Positions 1,388 through 18,721 of a stretch of 35,228 nucleotides of DNA are shown here, piece after piece. The DNA is from an uncultured Pirellulaceae bacterium. GTDB lineage: Bacteria > Planctomycetota > Planctomycetia > Pirellulales > Pirellulaceae. The DNA lies in the NCBI GenBank assembly GCA_937928215.1, contig CALFWL010000090.1:1-35228 (forward strand), read 5' to 3'. Each line of letters begins with the position of its first letter. Within the stretch, counting starts at the first letter, position 1. The position numbers and the translations under genes were made by a program. A model generated the notes under the pieces. It was not told the DNA's origin, made no database searches, and was given only the letters and a program-made list of their open reading frames with translations.

Positions 1388-1711
1388 GCAGGGTAATAGA
1401 TTCCGAAAATCTGAGAATGCGGGCTGCGAGTCTTTCTCATGAGCATCCGCCCCGAAAGGCCGTCGTACTGGAAGCGACCAATATACAACATTTCAATTGT
1501 CTCGAATTCGCTGAATTTGCGTGTCGTTTTGATTGGAGCCAGGTCAAAGCGTCGCGGTCGTGTGGGGTTTGCAGGCTCCGTTGCCATTTACTCTTGGGGC
1601 CAGTCTGGGGTATCGTTGGGAAAGATAAACGCGTCTGCGTTGGATGGGGGCGGATGGAAAGACACCTTCATCGACGCTGTGCGAACTGATAATGCACCGA
1701 AAGTTGGATTT
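1388..1711. other. Divergent intergenic region
   Basis: These 324 bases separate the leftward small ORF/hydA pair from the rightward cytochrome lipoprotein and should hold promoters for both. Open frames cross it on both strands, including an in-frame N-terminal extension of the cytochrome gene, but their residue composition is not protein-like and the lipoprotein signal sequence marks the start at 1712. I see no convincing -35/-10 pair, hairpin or repeat here. Confidence 0.4.
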
Positions 1712-3367
1712 ATGAAACTCGCTTGGAATACTGGTCATTTCTTGCTTTGCGGGATTCTCGTACTTGGTGGTTTTGTGTCGACGGGTTGTGAGAATCCTCT
1801 CGCCGAAGCGAAGCTAGTCTTTGCTGGCGGAGCCGGCTCCGTTATGCAAAACCTGTTGGCAACTGTCTTGATTGCAGACACAAGCACGGCGTCGGCAGAT
1901 GACGAAACTTCCGATGCCGACGCGACAGCGGAAGGCTTGGTCAGCGATTGGGAACAGCCAGAGATCACGTTGTTCGTAACAGGTCGACAGCATGGTTATA
2001 TCGAACCGTGCGGCTGCACGGGGCTTGAAAATCAGAAAGGCGGTTTGATGCGCCGCCATTCAGCGCAGAGAGTACTCTTGGACCGAGGTTGGGACTTGGT
2101 TTCCATCGATGCGGGCAATCAAATCCGTCGCTTCGGTCAGCAGCCCACGATCAAGATGCGAAAGACGTTTGAAAGTCTTTGTCGAGTGATGGACTATTCG
2201 ATGGTTGGAATCGGTCCAGACGATTTGCGGACTCCTTCCATTGATCTGGTCCAAGCAATGTTCGATGCACCTGAAGGAGAGAACCCGTTTACTTGTGCGA
2301 ATGTCGTGATTGAGGAAATGGATGACGGAAGTCTGACCAATCAGTATCGTGTGATTGAAAAAAATGGTCACAAGCTGGGAGTCACCATGGTGCTGGGTGA
2401 CGAACACGTCCGTAAACTTCAAGACGTTGACGGAATCGATTTGGTGAACGCGACGGCCGCTTTGTCATTGGTAGTTCCTGCCTTGAAGAAGGCCGGTTGC
2501 GACATGCATGTGTTGGTGGCTCACGCGTCATTGGAACAGTGTCGCGAGCTGGCAAAACGGTTTCCCGAGTTTGATTTGCTGGTGACAGCCGGAGGGTCGG
2601 GGGATCCGACATTGCAGCCTGAAGTGATTGCAACGGGCGGCCGAGAGACTTCGATGATCCAAGTCGGCGTCAAAGGCATGTACGTCGGCCTGGTGGGAGT
2701 AAGCTGGGATCAAGGGCAGCCGATACTGAATTACGAACGCGTCCCGTTGGATGACCGATTTGCAGATTCTGCCGAGATGAAAAAAATGTTCACGTCGTAT
2801 CAGAAGGAATTGAAAAGTTTATGGTTGCGAGGAGCGTTGGACGACATTCGGCCTCGGAAGCACCCAAGCGGGAACACTTTTGTCGGCTCCGCATCCTGTG
2901 CCGATTGCCATGATGAAGAGTATGAAATCTGGGCAGAAGGCGTCGAAGGGGAAGGTGGCCCGCACGAGAAAGCGACTCGATCCTTGACGAACCCCGGCCA
3001 ACGAGCGTGGGTCCAGCGGCACTTTGACCCTGAATGCGTCAGTTGTCATTCGACCGGTTGGAATCCACAGGAGTATTATCCTTATACCACGGGCTTCGTG
3101 GATCTGAAAAAGCATGAAGCATTGCACGGCAACGGTTGTGAAAACTGTCACGGTCCCGGTTCCGCTCACGTGGCTGCGGAAAACGGAGACGTGGATGCGG
3201 ACGATGCGACGATAGAGAAACTTCGTCAGCAAATGGTTGTCACGCTGGCTCAGGCTCGCGAAGCGATGTGCATGAAGTGTCACGATCTGGACAATAGTCC
3301 GGACTTTGTTAAAGAGGGTGGTTTCGACAAGTACTGGCCGCATATCAAGCATGGCGGCAATGAATAA
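1712..3367 (+). CDS. Tetrahaem cytochrome c lipoprotein with UshA/5'-nucleotidase-like N-terminal domain
   Basis: A predicted 551-aa exported lipoprotein. An N-terminal hydrophobic stretch ends in a lipobox (FVSTGC, Cys26), which fixes the start at ATG 1712 rather than at upstream in-frame starts. Residues about 90-370 resemble the metallophosphoesterase/5'-nucleotidase fold: they begin ITLFVTG and carry a CGC motif (100-102) followed by KGGLMRR. The C-terminal third holds four haem-binding motifs, CADCH (396-400), CVSCH (442-446), CENCH (476-480) and CMKCH (520-524), resembling cytochrome c554-type modules. Similar two-part proteins are known in planctomycetes, but I know of no tested function; periplasmic electron transfer is inferred from the haems. 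The classic nucleotidase metal ligands (DxH, GNHD) are not evident, so the front domain may be non-catalytic. It is followed by 243 nt and then a kinase gene on the same strand. Confidence 0.85.
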   Translation: MKLAWNTGHFLLCGILVLGGFVSTGCENPLAEAKLVFAGGAGSVMQNLLATVLIADTSTASADDETSDADATAEGLVSDWEQPEITLFVTGRQHGYIEPCGCTGLENQKGGLMRRHSAQRVLLDRGWDLVSIDAGNQIRRFGQQPTIKMRKTFESLCRVMDYSMVGIGPDDLRTPSIDLVQAMFDAPEGENPFTCANVVIEEMDDGSLTNQYRVIEKNGHKLGVTMVLGDEHVRKLQDVDGIDLVNATAALSLVVPALKKAGCDMHVLVAHASLEQCRELAKRFPEFDLLVTAGGSGDPTLQPEVIATGGRETSMIQVGVKGMYVGLVGVSWDQGQPILNYERVPLDDRFADSAEMKKMFTSYQKELKSLWLRGALDDIRPRKHPSGNTFVGSASCADCHDEEYEIWAEGVEGEGGPHEKATRSLTNPGQRAWVQRHFDPECVSCHSTGWNPQEYYPYTTGFVDLKKHEALHGNGCENCHGPGSAHVAAENGDVDADDATIEKLRQQMVVTLAQAREAMCMKCHDLDNSPDFVKEGGFDKYWPHIKHGGNE

Positions 3368-3610: not shown

Positions 3611-5233
3611 TTGAGCGATCCGACAGAAGATCGAAACTTGACCCATGACCTGACCGGTCGGCAATTGGGAGACTATTCCTTGCTGCGTCGGCTGGGGCGC
3701 GGTGGCATGGCCGACGTATACCTAGCGACTCAGCATTCGCTCAATCGTCAGATCGCGTTGAAGATCCTCAAGCCAGATTTGGCGAAAGACGAATCTTACG
3801 TGCAGCGTTTTCATCGCGAGGCTCAAGCCGCGGCGGCGTTGGTGCAGGCGAACATCGTTCAAATTTACGAAGTGGGCGAAGCAGAAGGGTTCCACTTTAT
3901 CGCTCAGGAATACGTCCAAGGACGAAACCTGAAGCAATACCTCGCTCGCAATGGCGCGGTGGCACCCGTGATGGCCGTCAATATCCTCAGCCAGAGTGCT
4001 CGGGCACTGCAGAAATCGGGCGAGCTGCATGTAATTCATCGGGATATCAAGCCCGAAAACATTATGCTTTCGAGCAAAGGTGAGGTCAAAATCACCGACT
4101 TCGGACTCGCGCGTTTGAACAACCAGACCATGGAAGACGCTTTGACTCAGGTTGGCATCACGATGGGGACTCCGTTGTACATGAGCCCTGAGCAAGTTGA
4201 AGGTGGCCCATTGGACACTCGCAGTGATATCTATTCGTTGGGAGTGACGGCGTATCACATGTTGGCTGGCCATCCGCCGTTCGATGGCGACAGTCCGCTC
4301 GCGATTGCGGTCCAGCAGGTGAAGGACCAGGCTCCGGCGCTGCAGACTTTGCGCCGCGATGTCCCGGAAGAATTATGTCAGATCATCCACCGCATGATCA
4401 GCAAACTCCCCGACGATCGGCCTGCCGATGCAAGGCAACTGCTGAGGGACTTGCAGAGTGTAAAAATCGATTTCGACAACGACTGGGAGACGATTCTCGA
4501 ACGTCTTGCGATCGCGGAAACATCTTCAGACAGCAGCGACTCGGTCGAGTCAACAAAGACAACCAGCACGCGTCTTGAAGCGACCCGGCTTCTTCAGGAA
4601 GCGATGAAGGGAAACCTTCGCCGAGGCAGCCGCGTGCCGACTTGGGCAAAGGTGTTCGCACTGCTGACCGTCAGCGGTGTGGCAGGGGTTGGGGCTGCCA
4701 CCATCAATCCACTGCCTGATCCGCTGAGTGTTGAGGAAATTGCCGAGAGTAGAATTCCTCGCGAAGAGTCGGTCGAAGCGCAGCTGGAGGCCGCTTACTG
4801 GGGGACCTACTCGCTTCGAAAAAATGACGACGATAAACGCGAAGACCACTGGCAAGCCGTGATCGACTATTTCCCGCTGGATCAGGCGGAAGAAGATCAT
4901 CGCAACGTGACCGAACTGGTTCACTGTCGAGCGTTAACTCGGTTGGGTGAACTGTACTTGGATCAACAGGAATACGAGAAAGCCAAACGGGTTTTCGAAG
5001 AGTTAACCAACTTGGACGACCGGCTGTCGAGCCATTATCGACTGATGGGGTTTGCCGGGTTGGCGGCTGTCCACGACAAGACTCCGTTAGATGAATTTCC
5101 CGGCGGCATCGATGAGCGAGACGACATGGTCCGCCAAGCGTTGGGTGAAATTCGCGGTCGTTATGAACTGCTCAACGCTTTCATGCGAGAAAAAGCGGAA
5201 GAAATTTTTGAGCGTTACCCGCCGGATTCGTAA
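3611..5233 (+). CDS. Hanks-type Ser/Thr protein kinase with membrane anchor and TPR-like tail
   Basis: A 540-aa membrane-bound protein kinase of the PknB type. The kinase domain spans about residues 20-285: glycine-rich loop LGRGGMADVY (28-37), ATP-binding Lys51, catalytic HRDIKPEN (143-150, Asp145), DFG (163-165) and SPEQ (192-195). All key residues are intact, so activity is expected. A single hydrophobic segment (about 345-365) anchors it, placing the kinase inside the cell and a roughly 170-residue tail outside. The tail contains a TPR-like helix pair (LGELYLDQQEYEKAKRVFEE). The start is TTG 3611, preceded by GAGGA five bases upstream; an ATG at 3606 meets a stop at once in its own frame. 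Substrates are unknown. It lies downstream of the cytochrome gene on the same strand, but the 243-nt gap argues for a separate transcript. Confidence 0.92.
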   Translation: MSDPTEDRNLTHDLTGRQLGDYSLLRRLGRGGMADVYLATQHSLNRQIALKILKPDLAKDESYVQRFHREAQAAAALVQANIVQIYEVGEAEGFHFIAQEYVQGRNLKQYLARNGAVAPVMAVNILSQSARALQKSGELHVIHRDIKPENIMLSSKGEVKITDFGLARLNNQTMEDALTQVGITMGTPLYMSPEQVEGGPLDTRSDIYSLGVTAYHMLAGHPPFDGDSPLAIAVQQVKDQAPALQTLRRDVPEELCQIIHRMISKLPDDRPADARQLLRDLQSVKIDFDNDWETILERLAIAETSSDSSDSVESTKTTSTRLEATRLLQEAMKGNLRRGSRVPTWAKVFALLTVSGVAGVGAATINPLPDPLSVEEIAESRIPREESVEAQLEAAYWGTYSLRKNDDDKREDHWQAVIDYFPLDQAEEDHRNVTELVHCRALTRLGELYLDQQEYEKAKRVFEELTNLDDRLSSHYRLMGFAGLAAVHDKTPLDEFPGGIDERDDMVRQALGEIRGRYELLNAFMREKAEEIFERYPPDS

Positions 5234-6682: not shown

Positions 6683-8959
6683 CTAAGAGCTGAAGTTCTG
6701 ATTGATCCACCACCATAATCTCGCTCCCAACGAACGATAACCGGTGAACAAGCGGGCTTCTCCGCTGAGGCCGATCTTCAGTGTCTGGTCGTGCTGCTGG
6801 AGTGGCGCCCGAGCGTAGAATTGAATTTCGTCCAGTTGGTAGGCTGCGACCATCTCGGCGACTAGATCGGGGATTCGCCTGGCTGCGTTAGGATCAATCT
6901 CAGGGCGCTCGTAATCTTCCCGGTGAATCGACTGATCCGTTTCACCAAGTGCTTGAACTGTTGTTTCGAGCAATTCATCCGGCTGGGAATGCAACCTGAT
7001 TTTGACTTCCTGATCCTTGCCGGCAAACTTGATTTGATCTTCGCTGAGAAAAATAATTGCGTGCCACTGGCTCAGATCAGCCACTTCACAGAAACGCTGC
7101 CCTCGCATCGCCGCGACATTTTCATGGTTTCCGTGGAGCAACGGGAGTGCGTCGACCTTTTGAACGTCATCCGGTTGCTCGCCCGGATGTCGATAAGGAG
7201 TCGGCAACACGGTGCCTGCAATCGAGCTGGTGATTTCCAGTTTCTCTGATCGAGCCAAGTGTTCCTGGTGAAGCCGTCGAAGTTGAAGAAGTTCCGAGTT
7301 GAGTGTCGCGATTCGTTCCAGCAATTCGGGTGACGCGGATGTGCCACCGGTGATGGCCGCCAGACGCTCGCTCTCTTTTTCGGCGATCTTGCCAGCCGAT
7401 TCGTTCAGCGTCAGTTCTAGGTCGATGTTTTGAAGCTTCGCCAGCACCTGACCTGGTGCGACTTGCTCGCCCGGTTCCACTTCGCAGGACTCCAGCTGAC
7501 CGCTTTCTTCAACGTAAACGGTTTCCATCGCCTCGGGCAACACGACCAGTTGGCAACGCAAATGGTGGGGCAGCGGGACTGCTAGAATCAGCGTGACCAA
7601 GCCAATAAGGGCGGCTAGGATCGTAAAGAAACGTAACTTTTTCACTTGATGCATCCGTCCGGGAACTGACATGTACTTGTATAGTTTGTAACCCGGCATC
7701 CCGACCATGCCGATCAGGGAAAACAAGGCGATTCCGGTTCCGATCGACTCCAAGCCGTAAGGCTCAAGCCAAGTGGTCAAAAAGTAGATGATGGAAAACA
7801 TGACAAACCATCGATAGCAGAATGCCGCGACGGTGAACGATGCGAACGCCCAAGGTCGGTTGGTCGGCATCAGTTGGTCATCGGGAATTTCGAGTCCCAG
7901 CCAGTGTCGCCCGAGCAAAGTCGTGAGTGCTTTGGTCGATTTTTGGTTGAGGTTCGGGATCTCAAGGAGGTCGCTGAGAATGTAGTATCCGTCAAACCGG
8001 AGCAGCGGGTTACCGTTGAATAGAATCGTACTGATGGAGCTGACCAACATTACTCGAATGGCAAGTTCTTGGACCAACCCTGGTTGGACGAACCACCAGA
8101 TGAACGTCGCGATCGTCGCGAGGATGACCTCGACGTACATCCCGGCGGCCCCGATGGCTGCACGATGCCATTTATTGTTCAATCGCCAGCTGTCGGAAAC
8201 GTTGCAATACAGGCAAGGCGTCAGCACCAGCAGCATGAATCCGATCTCATGGCACTCGCCCCCCAATCGTTTACAGGAAAGTCCGTGACCGAACTCGTGC
8301 ATGATTTTGGTCACAGCAAGGACGACGACCATCAAGTACCACTGGCTGGGATCGAACAACTGCTCAAACCCAGGCAGTCTTGACTGAAACGCGGTCCAGT
8401 TCATCAACACCGACAGTAAAGCGATCGACGCCATGATTGCCACGAAGATGGCAGCGGCTGGAGTGAAAATCCACCAAGTGTATTTGATCAGCCAGTTCAG
8501 GACACCTTCCGGGTCAACGCCTTTCCAGCGGATGGCCAAGATGTTGGAGAATGTTCCGAACAATTCCATGCGGCGATTCTTATCGCCACGTTTCATTAGT
8601 TCCCTGCCCTGACCCGGCACATTGGCAGTGACTAGGCTATCCTGGTGAAATCGAGTAAGCAGTTGTTGCAAATCATTGCGAGTGATTCGTTTCGGCGCGT
8701 ACTCGGCGTGGTAGGCGTCCTGAAGCGAGTCAATGGTCTGGTGCCCGTCGAGCAGTTTCAGCAGATAGAACACTTGCGGCGGAAGCTGGAAATACTTCTG
8801 CCCGAGCGGTTCTTTGATGACCCAGTATTCAACGCCTTGGTAGGTTTGTCTGTCGAAAGTCAGGTCGGGCCGCATCTTCATCTGCACCAGCGGGCCGGCC
8901 GGAGGTGCGGTCTTGACCGGTTGAGCGCCGGGTTGATCGGGATATTTGATGAGCGACAA
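6683..8959 (-). CDS. PqqD-like / M50 site-2 protease / HlyD fusion membrane protein
   Basis: A 758-aa polytopic protein joining three modules. Residues about 35-110 resemble a PqqD-type winged helix (FQLPPQVFYLLKLLDG, then a helical segment), the fold used as RiPP recognition element. Residues about 155-470 form an M50 intramembrane metalloprotease: HEFGH at 221-225 binds zinc, and NPLLRFDGYY supplies the distal ligand Asp323; six or more membrane helices surround these. Residues about 480-740 are an HlyD-like adaptor: a split biotinyl/lipoyl domain (ESGQLESCEVEPGEQVAPGQ), an alpha-hairpin coiled coil (about 545-595) and a beta-barrel part. Catalytic residues are intact. The start is ambiguous: TTG 8959 at the edge of a heptamer repeat, or ATG 8881 (residue 27). 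It follows the GAF/HlyD gene after 207 nt. Function in processing plus export is inferred. Confidence 0.88.
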   Translation of the reverse strand: MSLIKYPDQPGAQPVKTAPPAGPLVQMKMRPDLTFDRQTYQGVEYWVIKEPLGQKYFQLPPQVFYLLKLLDGHQTIDSLQDAYHAEYAPKRITRNDLQQLLTRFHQDSLVTANVPGQGRELMKRGDKNRRMELFGTFSNILAIRWKGVDPEGVLNWLIKYTWWIFTPAAAIFVAIMASIALLSVLMNWTAFQSRLPGFEQLFDPSQWYLMVVVLAVTKIMHEFGHGLSCKRLGGECHEIGFMLLVLTPCLYCNVSDSWRLNNKWHRAAIGAAGMYVEVILATIATFIWWFVQPGLVQELAIRVMLVSSISTILFNGNPLLRFDGYYILSDLLEIPNLNQKSTKALTTLLGRHWLGLEIPDDQLMPTNRPWAFASFTVAAFCYRWFVMFSIIYFLTTWLEPYGLESIGTGIALFSLIGMVGMPGYKLYKYMSVPGRMHQVKKLRFFTILAALIGLVTLILAVPLPHHLRCQLVVLPEAMETVYVEESGQLESCEVEPGEQVAPGQVLAKLQNIDLELTLNESAGKIAEKESERLAAITGGTSASPELLERIATLNSELLQLRRLHQEHLARSEKLEITSSIAGTVLPTPYRHPGEQPDDVQKVDALPLLHGNHENVAAMRGQRFCEVADLSQWHAIIFLSEDQIKFAGKDQEVKIRLHSQPDELLETTVQALGETDQSIHREDYERPEIDPNAARRIPDLVAEMVAAYQLDEIQFYARAPLQQHDQTLKIGLSGEARLFTGYRSLGARLWWWINQNFSS

Positions 8960-8963
8960 AGTA

Positions 8964-8991
8964 GTTTTCGGTTTTCGGTTTTCGGTTTTCG
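8964..8991. repeat. Four tandem GTTTTCG heptamers
   Basis: Four perfect copies of GTTTTCG lie directly upstream (on the minus strand) of the TTG start of the M50/HlyD gene. Together with the following 24-nt direct repeat they form a low-complexity spacer between two genes of one apparent operon. Copy number could vary between strains. Confidence 0.85.
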
Positions 8992-9006
8992 GTGTTGGGC
9001 TTGGGG

Positions 9007-9055
9007 TTTTCGGGAGGGGAAGGCTCTGTCATTTTCGGGAGGGGAAGGCTCCGTC
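9007..9055. repeat. Two direct copies of a 24-nt intergenic repeat
   Basis: Copies at 9007-9030 and 9032-9055 share TTTTCGGGAGGGGAAGGCTC and differ at a single base near the end (CTGTC versus CCGTC). A further pair, GGGTACAGG at 9071-9079 and 9092-9100, follows. The whole 207-nt spacer between the two HlyD-type genes is built of such repeats and I see no gene in it. Confidence 0.8.
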
Positions 9056-9166: not shown

Positions 9167-11203
9167 TCAAAACAAAACTTTTGTCCGGACCCAGTCGTAG
9201 ACTTGATAGAAGCACCAGTACCATAGTTTCACTTCGCCGCATGAAACGCGAGCGGTTACGCCGGCACCGGGACGCAGTTCGCTCAGTTCATCCGGGTTCG
9301 CCCTGGCAGTCGCTCGAAACTCAGGAATGCCTTGGTCTGAAGGTTCGGCCCGGCTGGCAAGCTCCGTCAAGCTCGCATTCAGCCGAAGATTTGGATTCGT
9401 CTCGACAATGAAGCTAACATCCAAGGGCTTGTCCTCTGACTCCACGATGGCCCGGTTGATGTAACCGATTTTGTTTTGAGGAACTTTCAGCTCCAGCTGC
9501 CAATCGCCCTGCAGGTCGTCGACGGCAAGGACCGCTTGGTTGGCAGCCACGGGCAAACCGGGCAGCCGCCGTTTGGCGTCCCAAGTCACGACGGTACCGT
9601 CAATGGGAGCGTACAGGTTCAGGCGTTCTTTTTTCAGGTCGATCAAGCGCTGCTGGTCGATCAGGTTGGTTTTTCGTTTCTGATAAAGCTGCAACGTGCT
9701 GGTGACTTCCTGCATCTCAGCCGGATCATCAAAGCCTCGGGCCAGTTGATACTCGACCGATCGAATCTGCTGATCGAGCGTGATTAAACGGCCCTCGATG
9801 TCCTTCATCTGCAACTCAAGTTCCGGGCTGCGAAGCTCCAGTAACAGATCGCCTTGCTGCACGTTTGCGCGATTTCCCACGTGGACGGTTTCGACGATGC
9901 CTTCGGTCTGAGCAAAAATCGTACGTCGATTGGTTGGTTGCATCACGCCATCGACCTTCATCTCCAGATCCATCGGCCAGAACAGCATCGCCAGCGTCAG
10001 CAGTGCTAGGGCGACCAGCCCTGTCATCGTTTTGGCGAAATGATCTTGGAACAGAACTTTCTGGAGCCAGCCCATTCGCTTCCAAATAGGAAGCATGAAG
10101 ATTTCGCCATGCTGGCGAGCGTTTTCCAAAGCCAGTTGCGATTGGCCGACAATCAGTTTTGTGTCTTCTTCGATTGAGCCTTCGACCACGTCCTGATCGA
10201 AGTACTCGATGATCAACGCGCCCAATTTTTTTGGCTTTTTCTTGCGCCGACTTTTCATTTCAAGGTCAGGCGTTTCGGGCGGTTTCGCAAATAATGGCAA
10301 TACGACCAACGTGCGACTGTGAGCTTCATCCAAGTAGTCGTTGATTTTTCGGGCAACTTCCGGAGCGATCCCAGTGGTGTCTCCAAGGATCCAGAACGGG
10401 GCGTCCGCGCTAACGCTGGCCGTTGCAATTTTGCCCAGCTTTTTCACCACGTTGGCGCGGTTGTCGAATTTGTCTTGACTGCTGATCGCCAAAACCTTGC
10501 AGCGAGAACCGTTCCACCTAGCGACGCTGACGCGATCACACTTGAGCAGCCTGCGGGCTTCGTTTGCGATGGAGTACGCCGTTTCCTTGAAGTCGATCGA
10601 GCTGTGGGTTTCGTTGATGAAGTCCAGGCGTTCTGACCATGCGTCTGCGTGTTGGCTGAGTCTGGCCAGGTCCTGCTGCTCGTGCCACCGTTGAAACAGT
10701 TGCGAAACCTGGCTGAGGAAACGCAGGTAGCCGTCCTTCGCTTGCGCGCTGACGTTGCCGCGTTGCAGTAACTCCATCGCACCGTGACATTCTTTATTGC
10801 GATCATGAATCGGAGCCATCAGCAGCAGAAACGGTGGTTTTGCCTCGGCAGGGTTCTCAACGAACGCACTGCTGTCGATGCTTAATGGCTCGGCCGACTG
10901 CACGACCTTCATCAGTGCTCGCGAGTGTTGCTCATTTTCGGCTGACAGGACACTGCTGGCCAGCGAACTGGGGGATTCGCCCGATTTGTGCGTAATCACC
11001 GGGCCTTGGTTCCCGTTGACCTGCCACAGTGCGGCTCCAAACGCGCCGGTGATGTTGACGATCTGTTCCAAGACGGTGTTGCTGAACTTGTCGAAGTCCG
11101 CCTCCGAGCTTGCCAGTTCGCTTAGTTGCCGCACGGTTTGGCGGACCTCGTCACGGATTTCGTTCTGGGATCGTCCGCGTTGCGTTGTTTCGCCAGTTGA
11201 CAT
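9167..11203 (-). CDS. Tandem-GAF domain HlyD-type membrane adaptor
   Basis: A 678-aa protein with an unusual plan. The N-terminal 370 residues are predicted cytoplasmic and contain two GAF-like domains (about 30-165 and 200-365), folds that bind small ligands or act as sensors, joined by a helical linker. A Lys/Arg-rich patch (SRRKKKPKK) lies inside the second GAF. A single membrane helix (about 390-410) leads to an HlyD-like periplasmic part: a lipoyl half-motif (AQTEGIVETVHVGNRANVQQ), a coiled-coil hairpin (about 455-525), the second lipoyl half (LYAPIDGTVVTWD) and a beta-barrel. HlyD/EmrA-type adaptors link an inner-membrane pump to an outer-membrane channel. ATG 11203 lies 31 nt after the toxin stop, so co-transcription is likely. 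Coupling a cytoplasmic sensor to the adaptor is inferred; ligand and partner are unknown. Confidence 0.87.
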   Translation of the reverse strand: MSTGETTQRGRSQNEIRDEVRQTVRQLSELASSEADFDKFSNTVLEQIVNITGAFGAALWQVNGNQGPVITHKSGESPSSLASSVLSAENEQHSRALMKVVQSAEPLSIDSSAFVENPAEAKPPFLLLMAPIHDRNKECHGAMELLQRGNVSAQAKDGYLRFLSQVSQLFQRWHEQQDLARLSQHADAWSERLDFINETHSSIDFKETAYSIANEARRLLKCDRVSVARWNGSRCKVLAISSQDKFDNRANVVKKLGKIATASVSADAPFWILGDTTGIAPEVARKINDYLDEAHSRTLVVLPLFAKPPETPDLEMKSRRKKKPKKLGALIIEYFDQDVVEGSIEEDTKLIVGQSQLALENARQHGEIFMLPIWKRMGWLQKVLFQDHFAKTMTGLVALALLTLAMLFWPMDLEMKVDGVMQPTNRRTIFAQTEGIVETVHVGNRANVQQGDLLLELRSPELELQMKDIEGRLITLDQQIRSVEYQLARGFDDPAEMQEVTSTLQLYQKRKTNLIDQQRLIDLKKERLNLYAPIDGTVVTWDAKRRLPGLPVAANQAVLAVDDLQGDWQLELKVPQNKIGYINRAIVESEDKPLDVSFIVETNPNLRLNASLTELASRAEPSDQGIPEFRATARANPDELSELRPGAGVTARVSCGEVKLWYWCFYQVYDWVRTKVLF

Positions 11204-11234: not shown

Positions 11235-11519
11235 TTATGAGGAAGTCACGTCTTGGCTGCCGCCTACGATTCGCAACACTTCGATCCCGTTTTCGACAGG
11301 ACGAAAAAGAATAATGTAACGGCCAACCGATGAGCTTCGGACGCCCGGGCCCAAGTCGGGGCGGGCAGTTGCCGCGGTTGGCATTCCTGCCAATAACTCA
11401 CATTTTTCTTTGATCCGTTTGCCCCAAGTTTGAGCCGCAACAGGTTTGTCCGCAGCAATGTAGTCGATGATTTGGTCGAGTTCGGCTTCGGCTCGCAGCG
11501 AAAACTTGAGCGTGGGCAT
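11235..11519 (-). CDS. ParE/RelE-superfamily toxin
   Basis: A 94-aa toxin-like protein of the ParE branch of the RelE/ParE superfamily; ParE proteins poison DNA gyrase, RelE proteins cut mRNA. It shows the family layout: an N-terminal strand (TLKFSLRAEAEL), a helix (DQIIDYIAAD), a second helix (WGKRIKEKCELLAGMP), and the strands GRYIILFRP and IEVLRIVGGSQDV. RelE catalytic residues are not obvious, hence the ParE lean. The start is ATG 11519, whose A is shared with the antitoxin's TGA stop (TGATG), a standard sign of translational coupling; an upstream ATG at 11531 would add four residues. It sits between a SecA-like gene and a GAF/HlyD gene, to which it has no evident functional tie. Confidence 0.85.
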   Translation of the reverse strand: MPTLKFSLRAEAELDQIIDYIAADKPVAAQTWGKRIKEKCELLAGMPTAATARPDLGPGVRSSSVGRYIILFRPVENGIEVLRIVGGSQDVTSS

Positions 11520-11746
11520 CAATCGGCCCATCCATGTTTTCGTTTTAGTTTTGCAAACACTTCCTTGCCATCAACGCTCATTCCAGCGTCCAATTGTTCG
11601 ATGCCCTCCTGAACCATCGCACGCAGGCGTTCCAGTTTGAGCAAACGAACCGCCTCGGATACGGCAGCCTCAGGAGACTCGAAGTGCCCTTCGGCGACCA
11701 ATTCTTCAAAGTATTGGGTTGTTTCGGTTGGTAGATTCAAGCTCAT
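11519..11746 (-). CDS. ParD-like ribbon-helix-helix antitoxin
   Basis: A 75-aa protein of the ParD/CopG type. Residues 1-45 match the ribbon-helix-helix DNA-binding unit (MSLNLPTETTQYFEELVAEG, then SPEAAVSEAVRLLKLE); the rest is a charged tail expected to wrap the toxin. Such antitoxins neutralise their partner and repress their own operon. ATG 11746 is chosen because GGAGG lies five bases upstream, one of the best ribosome sites in this window; a TTG at 11767 lacks such support. Stop and toxin start overlap as TGATG. A promoter-like sequence lies about 50 nt upstream, inside the gap after the SecA-like gene, so the pair can be expressed independently of that operon. Confidence 0.87.
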   Translation of the reverse strand: MSLNLPTETTQYFEELVAEGHFESPEAAVSEAVRLLKLERLRAMVQEGIEQLDAGMSVDGKEVFAKLKRKHGWAD

Positions 11747-11793
11747 TACATCCTCCGACAAACTCAAGTTGATCGACCCGTTTGCGCTGAACC

Positions 11794-11841: not shown

Positions 11842-13734
11842 CTACTCAAAGTTATCCAAAATCGGATCGAGGCCCATTTCTCGCTGGGATTTGGCCAGCA
11901 TCTTTTCGGTGTACATCAGGATTCGTCGCGATCGATAATGTTGCTTCTCCACCTTTTGCTGTGCTTTTTCGAACAGTCGAATCCAGTAGCTGGCTGTGCG
12001 GTCTTTACCGGTTGCACGCATGCGATCGGCCTTTTGTTTGCCAAATGCTGAATCCAGTAACTTATCTTCGGCGGCAATGTACAGCTGAACCGTGCCTGAA
12101 TCGCCCTGTCTGGCACAACGTCCAAACAGCTGGTGATCAATCCGGGCCGATTCGTGCATCTCGGTTCCGATCACGTGCATCCCGCCCAGCTCACGAACCG
12201 AGTCATCGATTTTGATGTCGGTCCCGCGACCGGCCATGTTGGTCGCGACGGTGATTTTTCCTTGCTCGCCGGCAGACGCCACGATATCGGCTTCGCGTTC
12301 GATCTGGCGAGCATTCAAGACTTCGTGTTCGATGCCGTCTCGTGTCAGTAGAGCCGAGAGTTGTTCCGACTTGGCGATCGAGCGTGTTCCGATCAGGATG
12401 GGCCGTCCGATGTCGTGTTGCTCTTTCACATCCGCGACGATCTGTTCGAATTTGTCCGCTTCATGGAACGAGTACTTGATCGGGTGGATGATGCGAATCC
12501 GTTTCTTATTAGTTGGAATGACCGTCACGCCCATGTGATAGATTTTTTTGAATTCACGCGATGAAGTGAAAGCCGTTCCCGTCATGCCGGCGATGTGAGC
12601 AAACCGACTGACGAAAGACTGGACGGTGATCTTGGCTTGGGTGTTTGTGTCCATCGTGATCTCGACGGACTCTTTGGCTTCGATCGCCTGATGGACACCG
12701 CGGCTCCAGCGCCGTCCCTCGCTGATTCGTCCGGTGGCTTCGTCCACGATTACAATTTCACCGTCGCGAACCACGTAGTCACGATCATGCTTGTAGTCGC
12801 GAAAGACCTGAATGGCTCGTTCCATGAAGTCGTACATTTCCAACAGTCCGACACCGGCCAATATCGGTGGTTTGGTAACTTCGCGAACCAAGGCGGTGCC
12901 TTCGGGCGTTAGGTCGACTTTGCGACGTTCTCGGTCGTACCAATAGTGATGTTCTTCTTCGAATTTTTCGGCGGCCATTGCCGACCACGTGTAAAGGGCT
13001 TTTTGTTGATCCTGAGTCTGTCCGTCTTCCGGAGCGGAAATGATCAAGGGCGTTCGCGCTTCATCGATCAGAATGCTGTCCGCTTCATCGATCAGCAGAA
13101 AATGAGGCGGCCGATGGACCGGCTTGGCTGTTGGAGCATCTGCGACCTCGCCCGCGCGACCTCCGTACCACAGCTCTCGCTGTTTCTGCTCGCGCTGCCC
13201 CGAGTGATCGCGCAGGAAGTCGAAACCGAATTCTTTCATCGTTCCGTAAGTCACGCTGCACGCGTAAGCGGCCCGACGCTGCTCGCGCGACATGTCGGAC
13301 TGAATGACTCCAACCGTCAACCCGAGCGATTGATACAACGGTTGGAGCGACTCGGCGTCACGTCGAGCCAAGTAATCGTTGCTAGTCGCTAGGAGGGCTC
13401 CTCGACCGGCAAGCGCGTGGACGAACATGGGCAGAGTCGCGGTGAGTGTTTTTCCTTCACCGGTTTGCATCTGGGCCACGTGGCCGTGGCACATGGCTTC
13501 GCCACCTTTCAGCTGTACATCATAGTGCTGCATCTTCAGCTGACGTTTAGCTGCGACTTGGACCAGCGCAAACCCTCGCACGATCAGCGGCAAAACATCG
13601 TCGTGCTGACGAGACTCGAAGCCCAGATCCAACGCGATATCAGACAGTTGCGAATCGGTCAGCGACTCGTAAGCCGCAGCCTGTTTCTTGATTTGAGAAA
13701 CGGACGAACCAAGTTGGACTCTGGCGAAGTTCAC
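11842..13734 (-). CDS. SecA-like ATPase lacking wing, two-helix-finger and C-terminal regions
   Basis: A 630-aa protein clearly homologous to the SecA motor. Walker A is MQTGEGKT (89-96, Lys95), the Walker B region is LIDEADSILIDEARTPLI (214-231), the crosslinking domain follows, and the second RecA fold carries GMTGTA and GRGTDIKI. Roughly 25 extra residues precede Walker B. Bacterial SecA is usually 800-1100 aa. This one ends just after the point where the long scaffold helix begins (KAQQKVEKQHYRSRR), so the wing domain, the two-helix finger and the zinc tail are absent. It therefore looks like an ATPase core with crosslinking domain and is probably not the housekeeping SecA. The start is GTG 13734; an in-frame stop lies 21 nt upstream. 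It heads a leftward set with the toxin-antitoxin and HlyD-type genes. Whether the short form is natural or a truncation is discussed in the findings. Confidence 0.9.
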   Translation of the reverse strand: MNFARVQLGSSVSQIKKQAAAYESLTDSQLSDIALDLGFESRQHDDVLPLIVRGFALVQVAAKRQLKMQHYDVQLKGGEAMCHGHVAQMQTGEGKTLTATLPMFVHALAGRGALLATSNDYLARRDAESLQPLYQSLGLTVGVIQSDMSREQRRAAYACSVTYGTMKEFGFDFLRDHSGQREQKQRELWYGGRAGEVADAPTAKPVHRPPHFLLIDEADSILIDEARTPLIISAPEDGQTQDQQKALYTWSAMAAEKFEEEHHYWYDRERRKVDLTPEGTALVREVTKPPILAGVGLLEMYDFMERAIQVFRDYKHDRDYVVRDGEIVIVDEATGRISEGRRWSRGVHQAIEAKESVEITMDTNTQAKITVQSFVSRFAHIAGMTGTAFTSSREFKKIYHMGVTVIPTNKKRIRIIHPIKYSFHEADKFEQIVADVKEQHDIGRPILIGTRSIAKSEQLSALLTRDGIEHEVLNARQIEREADIVASAGEQGKITVATNMAGRGTDIKIDDSVRELGGMHVIGTEMHESARIDHQLFGRCARQGDSGTVQLYIAAEDKLLDSAFGKQKADRMRATGKDRTASYWIRLFEKAQQKVEKQHYRSRRILMYTEKMLAKSQREMGLDPILDNFE

Positions 13735-17059: not shown

Positions 17060-18721
17060 TCACGATCCGCCATGTAGCAGAGCGGTTTGTCTGACTGCGA
17101 TCGGATGAAAAATGAACATAGGAATCCCGGATCGTACGGGCGCGGACGATCGCATTTTGCTTATGTCATGGACCGTCCAGTCGCGAGTTGCATCGATTGC
17201 ATCCAATCCTGTCTCAACGCTCTCGTACACCTCGAACACTGCCGGATCGCGACCTTTCACATCGGCCATCGAAACTGCGACAAAAACCACTGCGATCAAA
17301 ATCAAGAACATGATGGCGATCATTACGGGAACGATCCACTTGTGCTTTCGGGTCGTTCGGGCAATCTTGCGAAATGACTTGGAGCGTACAAACGAGGACC
17401 GGGAACCGCTGGGCTCGTTTAATGAACCACCGCTATCGTGGTGAATGTTACTGGATGAGCCTCGGGCCTTGCTGCTGGCGGAACTTCCACTGGTGTCGAT
17501 CGCGAAAACGGCCGAGTCCACTTGAGGATCGGTCGGATGCCTCGCTTGCGCGCCGGCCTGATCCGATGGGTCGGTGGAGCTGGGGGGCAGCAAAGAAGAA
17601 ATAATCGTTGCGTCGGCGGGTGGGACCGTTTTCAACACAAAAGTGCCTTGGCTGGCCGTTTTGTCCAAGCCAATGCAGTGTTGTCGGCCTGTTTCTTGCC
17701 ACGCTCTTAGTTCCTGCACCAGATCGTTACACGATTGATAGCGTGCCTCGGGCAGTTTTGCCATCATCGCGAAACAGATGTCAGACAAAGGCTGAGAACA
17801 CTCGGGGCGGCTTTCTTGAATCGCTTGGGATCGTTGGGTCTGGTGCATCGCAATACGTTGGGCCAACGTTCCCTTGGGAAACGGCGGATGTCCGGTCAAC
17901 AGGTAATAAAGCGTACAGCCCATCGAGTAAATGTCCGCTCGATGATCGACCTCGTGGCTGTTGACGGCCTGCTCGGGAGACAAATAGTCTGCGGTTCCCA
18001 TGACTCGTTCGTTGTACAGTACGGTCAGCGACTCGTCGTCCTCGCCCAAATCGAATAGCGCCAGACCAAGATCCAGAATCTTAACGGTGCCGTCGGCCAT
18101 CTGAAGCAAGTTGGCAGGCTTGATGTCGCGATGGACTAGTTCGCGGTCATGAGCATGTTGCAGACCGGAACAGGACTGAATGATGGCCTCGACCGCTTCA
18201 TGGATCGGTAGCGGACCTTGGTCTTTGACTCGTTGGTACAGGTCGGTACCTCGGACGTGTTCCATGACCATATAGTGCGTGTCTGCCTCGCTGCAAATGT
18301 CGTAGATGCGAACGACATTCGGATGGTTTAAGCTGGCGGCAGCTTTTCCTTCACGATAGAAGCGGTCGAGGTAGCTGGGATCGGTCGCCTTCTTGCGAGG
18401 CAGCACCTTGATGGCGCGACGGTGACCGGAAATGATGTGCTCTGCCAGATAGACGGTGCTCATGCCACCCGCGCCAAGGAGCCCAAGCAATTTGAATTTG
18501 CCCAGAAAGAAGCCCTTGTACTTGCCCAGCATCAATTTCTCGCAGTGCCATTGGGTGATCAGGCCGGAATCGACCAAGTGGCGGGTTAGCTGACTGAGTG
18601 CGACAGTTTCTCCGGCGGCCTTTTGAGATAGCTTGGCCAGAGTATCCTTAAGGCTCTCGTCTTCCACGATCCCGCTCTTGTCGAGCAACTTCAGGAAGCT
18701 CTTTGCGCTGGGTACGGGCAT
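17060..18721 (-). CDS. Planctomycete-type Ser/Thr protein kinase (DLG variant) with C-terminal membrane anchor
   Basis: A 553-aa kinase. An N-terminal helical region of about 70 residues (LLDKSGIV, then QLTRHLVDSGLITQWHCEKL) precedes the catalytic domain; this segment is typical of planctomycete kinases. Catalytic elements are GAGGMSTVYLAE (83-94), Lys105, HRDIKPANLL (197-206, Asp199), DLG (217-219) in place of DFG, and SPEQ. Asp217, the metal-binding residue, is kept, so activity is expected. A Ser/Thr/Pro-rich linker leads to one membrane helix (about 456-478), leaving about 70 residues outside. It starts at ATG 18721, 64 nt from the divergent DUF2064 gene. Its stop overlaps a possible GTG start of the DUF4328 gene, suggesting a two-gene operon. 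Confidence 0.92.
   Translation of the reverse strand: MPVPSAKSFLKLLDKSGIVEDESLKDTLAKLSQKAAGETVALSQLTRHLVDSGLITQWHCEKLMLGKYKGFFLGKFKLLGLLGAGGMSTVYLAEHIISGHRRAIKVLPRKKATDPSYLDRFYREGKAAASLNHPNVVRIYDICSEADTHYMVMEHVRGTDLYQRVKDQGPLPIHEAVEAIIQSCSGLQHAHDRELVHRDIKPANLLQMADGTVKILDLGLALFDLGEDDESLTVLYNERVMGTADYLSPEQAVNSHEVDHRADIYSMGCTLYYLLTGHPPFPKGTLAQRIAMHQTQRSQAIQESRPECSQPLSDICFAMMAKLPEARYQSCNDLVQELRAWQETGRQHCIGLDKTASQGTFVLKTVPPADATIISSLLPPSSTDPSDQAGAQARHPTDPQVDSAVFAIDTSGSSASSKARGSSSNIHHDSGGSLNEPSGSRSSFVRSKSFRKIARTTRKHKWIVPVMIAIMFLILIAVVFVAVSMADVKGRDPAVFEVYESVETGLDAIDATRDWTVHDISKMRSSAPVRSGIPMFIFHPIAVRQTALLHGGS

Follow-up and report, generated by a model that had tools for sequence, protein, structure and literature searches.

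A PqqD/RRE, M50 protease and HlyD adaptor fusion in an uncultured Pirellulaceae bacterium, and a likely cargo class of large surface proteins with a LEPR-type N-terminal tag

Proteins that combine M50 and HlyD domains have been described in the secondary SecA_DEAD loci of Kamneva, Poudel and Ward (2015, PMC4452313), in which they are encoded together with a short SecA and a GAF-HlyD protein. According to the accessible portion of that paper, these loci comprise SecA without the SW domain, M50-HlyD, GAF-HlyD and sometimes an OEP, and are distributed among Planctomycetes, Proteobacteria and other groups; SecA_DEAD was suggested to serve as the ATPase and M50 as the pore, while the broader role was termed “completely unknown”. 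Methylobacterium extorquens AM1 is one laboratory strain with such a locus (genes META1p2399-2402 in that paper). The words PqqD and LEPR do not occur in its main text. A second precedent is provided by the daptides, where fusions of an RRE to a site-2 protease are co-encoded with precursors containing ELExMEAP and, in the accessible portion of PMC10036551, are assigned the removal of the leader. The LEPR-XLL motif is already a named NCBI domain (NCBIfam NF012209), as an annotation only; the accessible portions of the papers that mention this domain name no export route for it, and the open-access literature searched, likewise accessible in part and a weak negative, yielded no link between LEPR proteins and a fusion of the kind described below. 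Here we analyse a stretch of 35,228 nucleotides (the window) from an uncultured Pirellulaceae bacterium, which contains a locus of the secondary SecA_DEAD type; to the loci as published we add an RRE domain, a count of zinc-site conservation and a link to LEPR-type cargo.

The open reading frame at 6683..8959 on the minus strand of the window is a single open frame with a TTG start codon, and encodes a protein of 758 aa in which a PqqD/RRE domain, an M50 site-2 protease and a HlyD-type adaptor are fused, as confirmed by Pfam and NCBIfam searches, an AlphaFold2 model (63 aligned sequences, mean pLDDT 85.2) and VIA-align comparisons with the whole model. The same frame is present at 90% identity in a second genome (G020), where it is interrupted by a contig end. 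Short direct repeats (TTTTCGG units and one 24-nt pair) are located directly upstream of the fusion start, at 8964-9055.

The N-terminal domain (residues 25-112; 8624..8887, minus strand) has a winged-helix fold in the models, with strands at residues 27-59, three helices within 61-106 and a further strand at 110-112, a pattern characteristic of RREs. VIA-align places it on the RRE of the lasso-peptide protein TbiB1 in complex with a leader peptide (Z 10.1), and when the domain is folded alone, Foldseek ranks TbiB1-leader complexes first (E 1.9e-4), TfuB1 (6jx3) third and PqqD (5sxy) eighth with a probability of 1.00. The relationship is less evident at the level of sequence: Pfam PqqD matches residues 47-109 with E 4.8e-4 and 20.9 bits, so that the window protein stays under the family cut-off of 23.4, although PqqD is detected at E<=0.01 in 10 of 21 fusion family members and one relative matches TIGR03859 (E 1e-5, also under the cut-off). 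The membrane part (approximately residues 163-401; 7757..8473, minus strand) consists in the model of long helices with a beta hairpin at residues 238-253. It contains the M50 core, with a Pfam Peptidase_M50 match at residues 211-372 (27.3 bits against a cut-off of 27.2) and a structural match to RseP over residues 203-398 (Z 10.3, rmsd 3.5, 161 aligned). In common with RseP and other site-2 proteases it has an HExxH motif and a distal Asp, represented here by HEFGH (residues 221-225; 8285..8299, minus strand) and by the third zinc ligand D323 within NPLLRFDG (7991..7993, minus strand), but it differs from them in that no PDZ domain is seen in the membrane part, an RRE precedes the core and an adaptor follows it. 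The adaptor (residues 462-758; 6686..7576, minus strand) is of the HlyD/MacA periplasmic type, with lipoyl-like and barrel domains and a short helical hairpin (512-538 and 544-572). Pfam HlyD_D23 and HlyD_3 both match residues 616-674 under their cut-offs; the assignment is carried by VIA-align to MacA (residues 463-741, Z 16.8, 227 aligned) and by the adaptor profile A2, which matches MacA structures with E 6e-17. The order of the helices and the match to RseP suggest a topology in which the RRE would be cytosolic, the zinc site would lie near the cytosolic face and the adaptor would be periplasmic.

These results bear out a sequence-only reading of this DNA, which had proposed peptide-recognition-like, protease and adaptor modules in that order and had placed the PqqD-like domain at residues 35-110, close to the modelled span. 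That reading also pointed to an intact HEFGH...D zinc site, and no loss of its ligands was encountered among homologs: H221, E222, H225 and D323 are retained in all 161 distinct relatives of at least 650 aa, a figure in which D323 is partly selected for, since 80 named loci were gathered with the pattern NPL[LM]R[FY]DGY, which includes the Asp motif though not HExxH (other loci were gathered by whole-protein similarity). Such conservation bears on the proposal that the M50 domain mainly serves a type I-like exporter as its pore or scaffold in the inner membrane, with proteolysis secondary or lost. A pore role was put forward in the accessible portion of PMC4452313, the clusters share no other recurrent gene for an inner-membrane channel, and the fusion model contains several long helices; a mere pore would nevertheless have no need of the zinc-site residues, and we regard this proposal as unlikely.

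The description of this single polypeptide as unusual does not survive comparison with other genomes. Fusion matches were found in all 60 genomes sampled in the order, including the host, which has five copies, as well as in 46 of 199 genomes across the phylum and in Proteobacteria. There is also precedent in print, again from the accessible portions of the sources, in the RRE-M50 fusions of PMC10036551 and the M50-HlyD proteins beside short SecA of PMC4452313. Taken as a whole, the earlier interpretation is thus partly supported.

The closest NCBIfam relative of the fusion is the daptide protease family MpaP/DapP (NF041824, daptide_HExxH), which gives the strongest match, over residues 31-405 (E 5.7e-52). 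In both, a site-2 protease is fused behind an N-terminal RRE, and the partner precursors of the daptide enzymes, in the accessible portion of PMC10036551, carry an ELE-type leader motif. The window protein nevertheless scores 177.1 bits against an equivalog cut-off of 300, and the daptide substrate is a small RiPP; moreover, the daptide model has 379 positions, which leaves no room for an adaptor. The RRE fold and this family match would suit a daptide-like system for the maturation and export of a small peptide, but no RiPP-modifying enzyme was detected beside the fusion among the window proteins scanned, and the motif-bearing genes of the linked clusters described below encode large proteins. 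We consider a RiPP pathway very unlikely and rank it below export of large proteins. The LEPR leaders have an L-E core in common (one reads ELEERIAP), and its resemblance to the daptide precursors is suggestive only.

Upstream of the fusion, a conserved partner gene at 9167..11203 (minus strand) encodes a 678-aa protein with GAF and HlyD adaptor domains assigned by Pfam, and further upstream, at 11842..13734 (minus strand), lies a gene for a short SecA-like ATPase of 630 aa, recognised by Pfam, NCBIfam and its sequence, with SecA_DEAD, preprotein cross-linking and P-loop domains. The Walker A motif (QTGEGKT), DEADS and GRGTD are intact in the latter, and no match to the SecA scaffold/wing domain (SecA_SW) was obtained. 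A SecA_DEAD protein without SecA_SW adjoining M50-HlyD and GAF-HlyD genes identifies the window cluster as a secondary SecA_DEAD locus; TolC, a third adaptor and a LEPR gene are all missing from it, and none of the selected window ORFs of at least 150 aa has a LEPR motif in its first 130 residues. Of the four SecA_DEAD genes present in the host genome, one is an open frame 1,237 aa long and the other three measure 636-706 aa. In the window, the SecA-like gene is separated from the GAF-HlyD gene by a gene for a ParE-type toxin and a small ORF that overlaps it (11235-11531 and 11519-11767, minus strand), the small ORF being an antitoxin by position, with no Pfam match; only approximately 140 bp separate the two flanking genes in G020 (L150), so the ParE pair looks inserted in the window. 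Other genes in the window include one at 1439-3367 (plus strand), whose 642-aa product matches the UshA-like (seleno)protein model NF041198 under its cut-off and has a cytochrome c554-like stretch at 486-572, and two Ser/Thr protein kinase genes at 3611-5233 (plus strand) and 17060-18721 (minus strand), relatives of each of which occur in 8 of the 80 named loci.

The partner genes recur to differing extents in the 80 named loci, many of which end at contig ends. A GAF-HlyD-labelled ORF is present in 56 of them, in 49 cases on the same strand and within 6 kb of the fusion, and our own profiles label a third adaptor in 53, a DUF3467 protein in 19 and a SecA-like protein in 10. The small DUF3467 protein recurs in named and other clusters alike (L072, L077, L166, L167, L217 and others) and was confirmed by Pfam in the two cases examined. 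SecA-like genes accompany the fusion in 10/80 window-type loci, 14/40 other planctomycete loci (L172-L211) and 7/12 plasmid loci, which indicates that a gene for the motor is not invariably located close by.

These clusters resemble type I secretion systems (HlyB-HlyD-TolC) in possessing a HlyD-type adaptor, TolC in related clusters and large surface cargo. In contrast to type I systems, no ABC exporter gene adjoins the fusion where examined, and a SecA-like ATPase is present in some clusters. No ABC exporter gene was found beside the fusion among the window proteins scanned; ABC ATPase families appear within the fetched 22 kb in 7 of the 80 named loci, none adjoining the fusion, and the importer-type ABC genes of one plasmid record (H13) are approximately 8 kb away, again with none adjoining it. 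The type I secretion signal is usually C-terminal, whereas an N-terminal signal is proposed for the cargo of the fusion. Site-2 proteases often act in regulated intramembrane proteolysis, and the fusion could in principle cut a membrane-bound regulator while its GAF-HlyD partner senses a signal, as the GAF domains of the partner and the kinase genes of the window might suggest. The fused and adjacent adaptors, together with TolC in related clusters, favour export instead; a signal-transducing protease seems to us highly improbable and is also ranked below the export model.

Related clusters point to a likely class of cargo, namely large surface proteins with a LEPR-type N-terminal tag. The host itself has a complete paralogous cluster on contig C20, which encodes TolC, a SecA-like protein, HlyD, GAF-HlyD, the fusion and a DUF4347/cadherin-like giant; the giant contains LEDRVLYSA at residue 91, and its maximum N-terminal hydropathy is 1.51, with no strongly hydrophobic stretch. 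Similar arrangements are found on plasmids. We sampled 12 of 81 fusion-matching plasmid records, picked for variety among the 30 matches listed, and in 11 of the 12 the cluster includes an ORF of approximately 3,400 to 16,000 aa with a LEPR motif near its N-terminus. These represent ten Alphaproteobacteria and one Betaproteobacterium (H22), the others being H1, H2, H7, H8, H9, H12, H13, H15, H19 and H29; H7 and H9 were each read as two pieces, with frames in agreement. No motif ORF was found at the remaining locus (H27). LEPR-XLL proteins are named by the records’ own annotation in H1, H13, H15 and H29, whereas in H2 the motif precedes the annotated start, within the same open frame. The LEPR gene of H13 spans the record origin, and another large open frame lies between it and the GAF-HlyD gene. 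SecA-like proteins without a SecA_SW match are encoded in H1, H7, H8, H9, H12, H13 and H29. A putative helicase near the fusion in H19 was rejected as a SecA candidate, being of the restriction type.

Several annotations in these regions deserve comment. Some SecA-like ATPases in plasmid records, which have no SecA_SW match, are annotated as “prepilin peptidase” (L165:18020-20044, L166:17168-19084) or “DEAD/DEAH box helicase”. In a plasmid of Azospirillum sp. TSA2s (L168/L171) the open frame of the giant extends approximately 450 codons upstream of the annotated start, and this extension contains LEPRFMFDA; the gene may be mis-started. An open frame of approximately 8,700 codons that runs to a contig edge (L223, G089:C12:1-20000; L175) adjoins a cluster of DUF3467, GAF-HlyD, fusion, SecA-like and adaptor genes.

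In Planctomycetes the motif gene is found inside the cluster in several families. A strict first motif expression gave four N-terminal matches and missed variants, and broader expressions were then used. Scanning of 44 planctomycete loci, taken from among the phylum-wide fusion matches, two of which (L178 and L185) had no selected M50 ORF and were excluded, revealed a motif ORF in 9/42 loci (11/365 ORFs), a proportion biased upward because six regions (G219, G231, G166, G214, G093 and G096) had been chosen after a same-contig LEPR match. The planctomycete expression misses G093 (LEDRILLSG), and as a control it gave 0 matches in 177,663 residues beyond position 130. Among the window-type loci (L066-L145) only 2 of 794 ORFs match, of which that in L090 is plausible and that in L098 looks like chance; a fusion approximately 42% identical to the window protein (G180, L203) is accompanied, at a distance of 0.7 kb, by an ORF with a looser motif. 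A midpoint-rooted tree of 161 fusions, from which the partial L198 was left out, places 18 of 21 LEPR-linked tips in one half of 38 tips. The window fusion belongs to the other half, of 123 tips, which has three linked tips (L037, L049 and L090).

The association extends to whole genomes. NF012209, run at E<=10 with its family cut-off, is exceeded in 25 of 199 genomes, and 22 of these carry the fusion as compared with 46/199 overall (p 1.2e-13); the three others are G103, G223 and G224. At the default E the model detects nothing in the host because it has only 24 positions. With a 31-row motif model, the fusion is present in 21 of 21 positive genomes at E<=1e-3 and in 24 of 28 at E<=1e-2 (of the same 199); after removal of the 13 genomes that donated rows, the corresponding figures are 8/8 (p 4.6e-7) and 11/15. 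Fisher p values across these comparisons range from 6e-16 to 9e-7 and treat genomes as independent, uncorrected for phylogeny. Of the 46 fusion-bearing genomes, 25 lack a match to the motif at E<=1e-3. Within the order, motif matches occur in 60/60 genomes, with 725 at E<=0.1 (median 9) against a chance expectation, given the E-value, of approximately 6, and the host has 11 LEPR-type matches at this threshold. The motif is located at residues 15-122 of an ORF in 30 of 30 fetched loci, counted from the first possible start codon, often behind an Arg-rich stretch, and the highest 15-residue hydropathy across the 31 listed leaders is 1.75. A degenerate DNA pattern, LE.R.L/F.L/F.(S/A)A, proved uninformative when applied to the 199 genomes, its reversed control matching about equally often in many of them; in the host it gave four matches, at residues 37-62 of ORFs.

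It could be argued that LEPR genes and the fusion co-occur merely because both are found in lineages with many large surface proteins, the cargo leaving by another route. In favour of this explanation, phylogeny is uncontrolled in the genome counts and window-type clusters are mostly unlinked; against it, motif genes lie within the cluster itself, on plasmids from Alpha- and Betaproteobacteria as well as in planctomycetes of several families, and we judge it to be quite unlikely.

We therefore favour, with moderate confidence, a model in which an exporter for large surface proteins uses the fusion as its receptor, its leader peptidase and its adaptor in the inner membrane. RREs bind leaders and the daptide enzymes offer an RRE-protease precedent, on which basis leader binding, cutting and hand-over are proposed. 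In the scheme that we infer for binding, cleavage, energy source, pore and topology, the leader at the N-terminus of the cargo would lack the hydrophobic core of Sec signals, would often be rich in Arg/Lys and would end in a sequence resembling LE-x-R-x-L-L-(S/A/D)-A. The cytosolic PqqD/RRE domain would bind this leader, and the M50 domain, whose zinc site is presumably near the cytosolic face, would cleave at or near the motif. The periplasmic HlyD part, GAF-HlyD and other adaptors would connect to a TolC channel, and the short SecA-like ATPase, where present, would push the chain. Given the shared architecture and partners and the presence of LEPR-type genes elsewhere in the genome, the window copy may act on LEPR-type proteins encoded elsewhere in the host. 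The suggestion of the sequence-only reading that one polypeptide might recognise, cut and hand over a substrate is still the best model and rather probable, now with a candidate substrate class, binding and cutting being conjectural steps within it.

Joining the locus described in 2015 with LEPR yields a testable hypothesis as to the tag, the reader and the cutter for large surface proteins, and provides candidate cargo for each of the 60 genomes sampled from the order. If it is correct, recognition by RREs would be extended from small peptides to giant proteins. More tentatively, and with the odds clearly against it, these systems could constitute a separate secretion route in Planctomycetes and Proteobacteria, in which a short N-terminal LEPR leader, with no relationship to Sec or Tat signals, is recognised by an RRE and cut in the membrane by a polypeptide that also forms the periplasmic adaptor, while giant proteins are driven through this complex towards TolC by a SecA motor that lacks its scaffold/wing domain. 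Were such a route to exist, a single polypeptide would combine the roles of receptor and signal peptidase with a share in the channel, and it would be needed by many of the surface proteins of planctomycetes.
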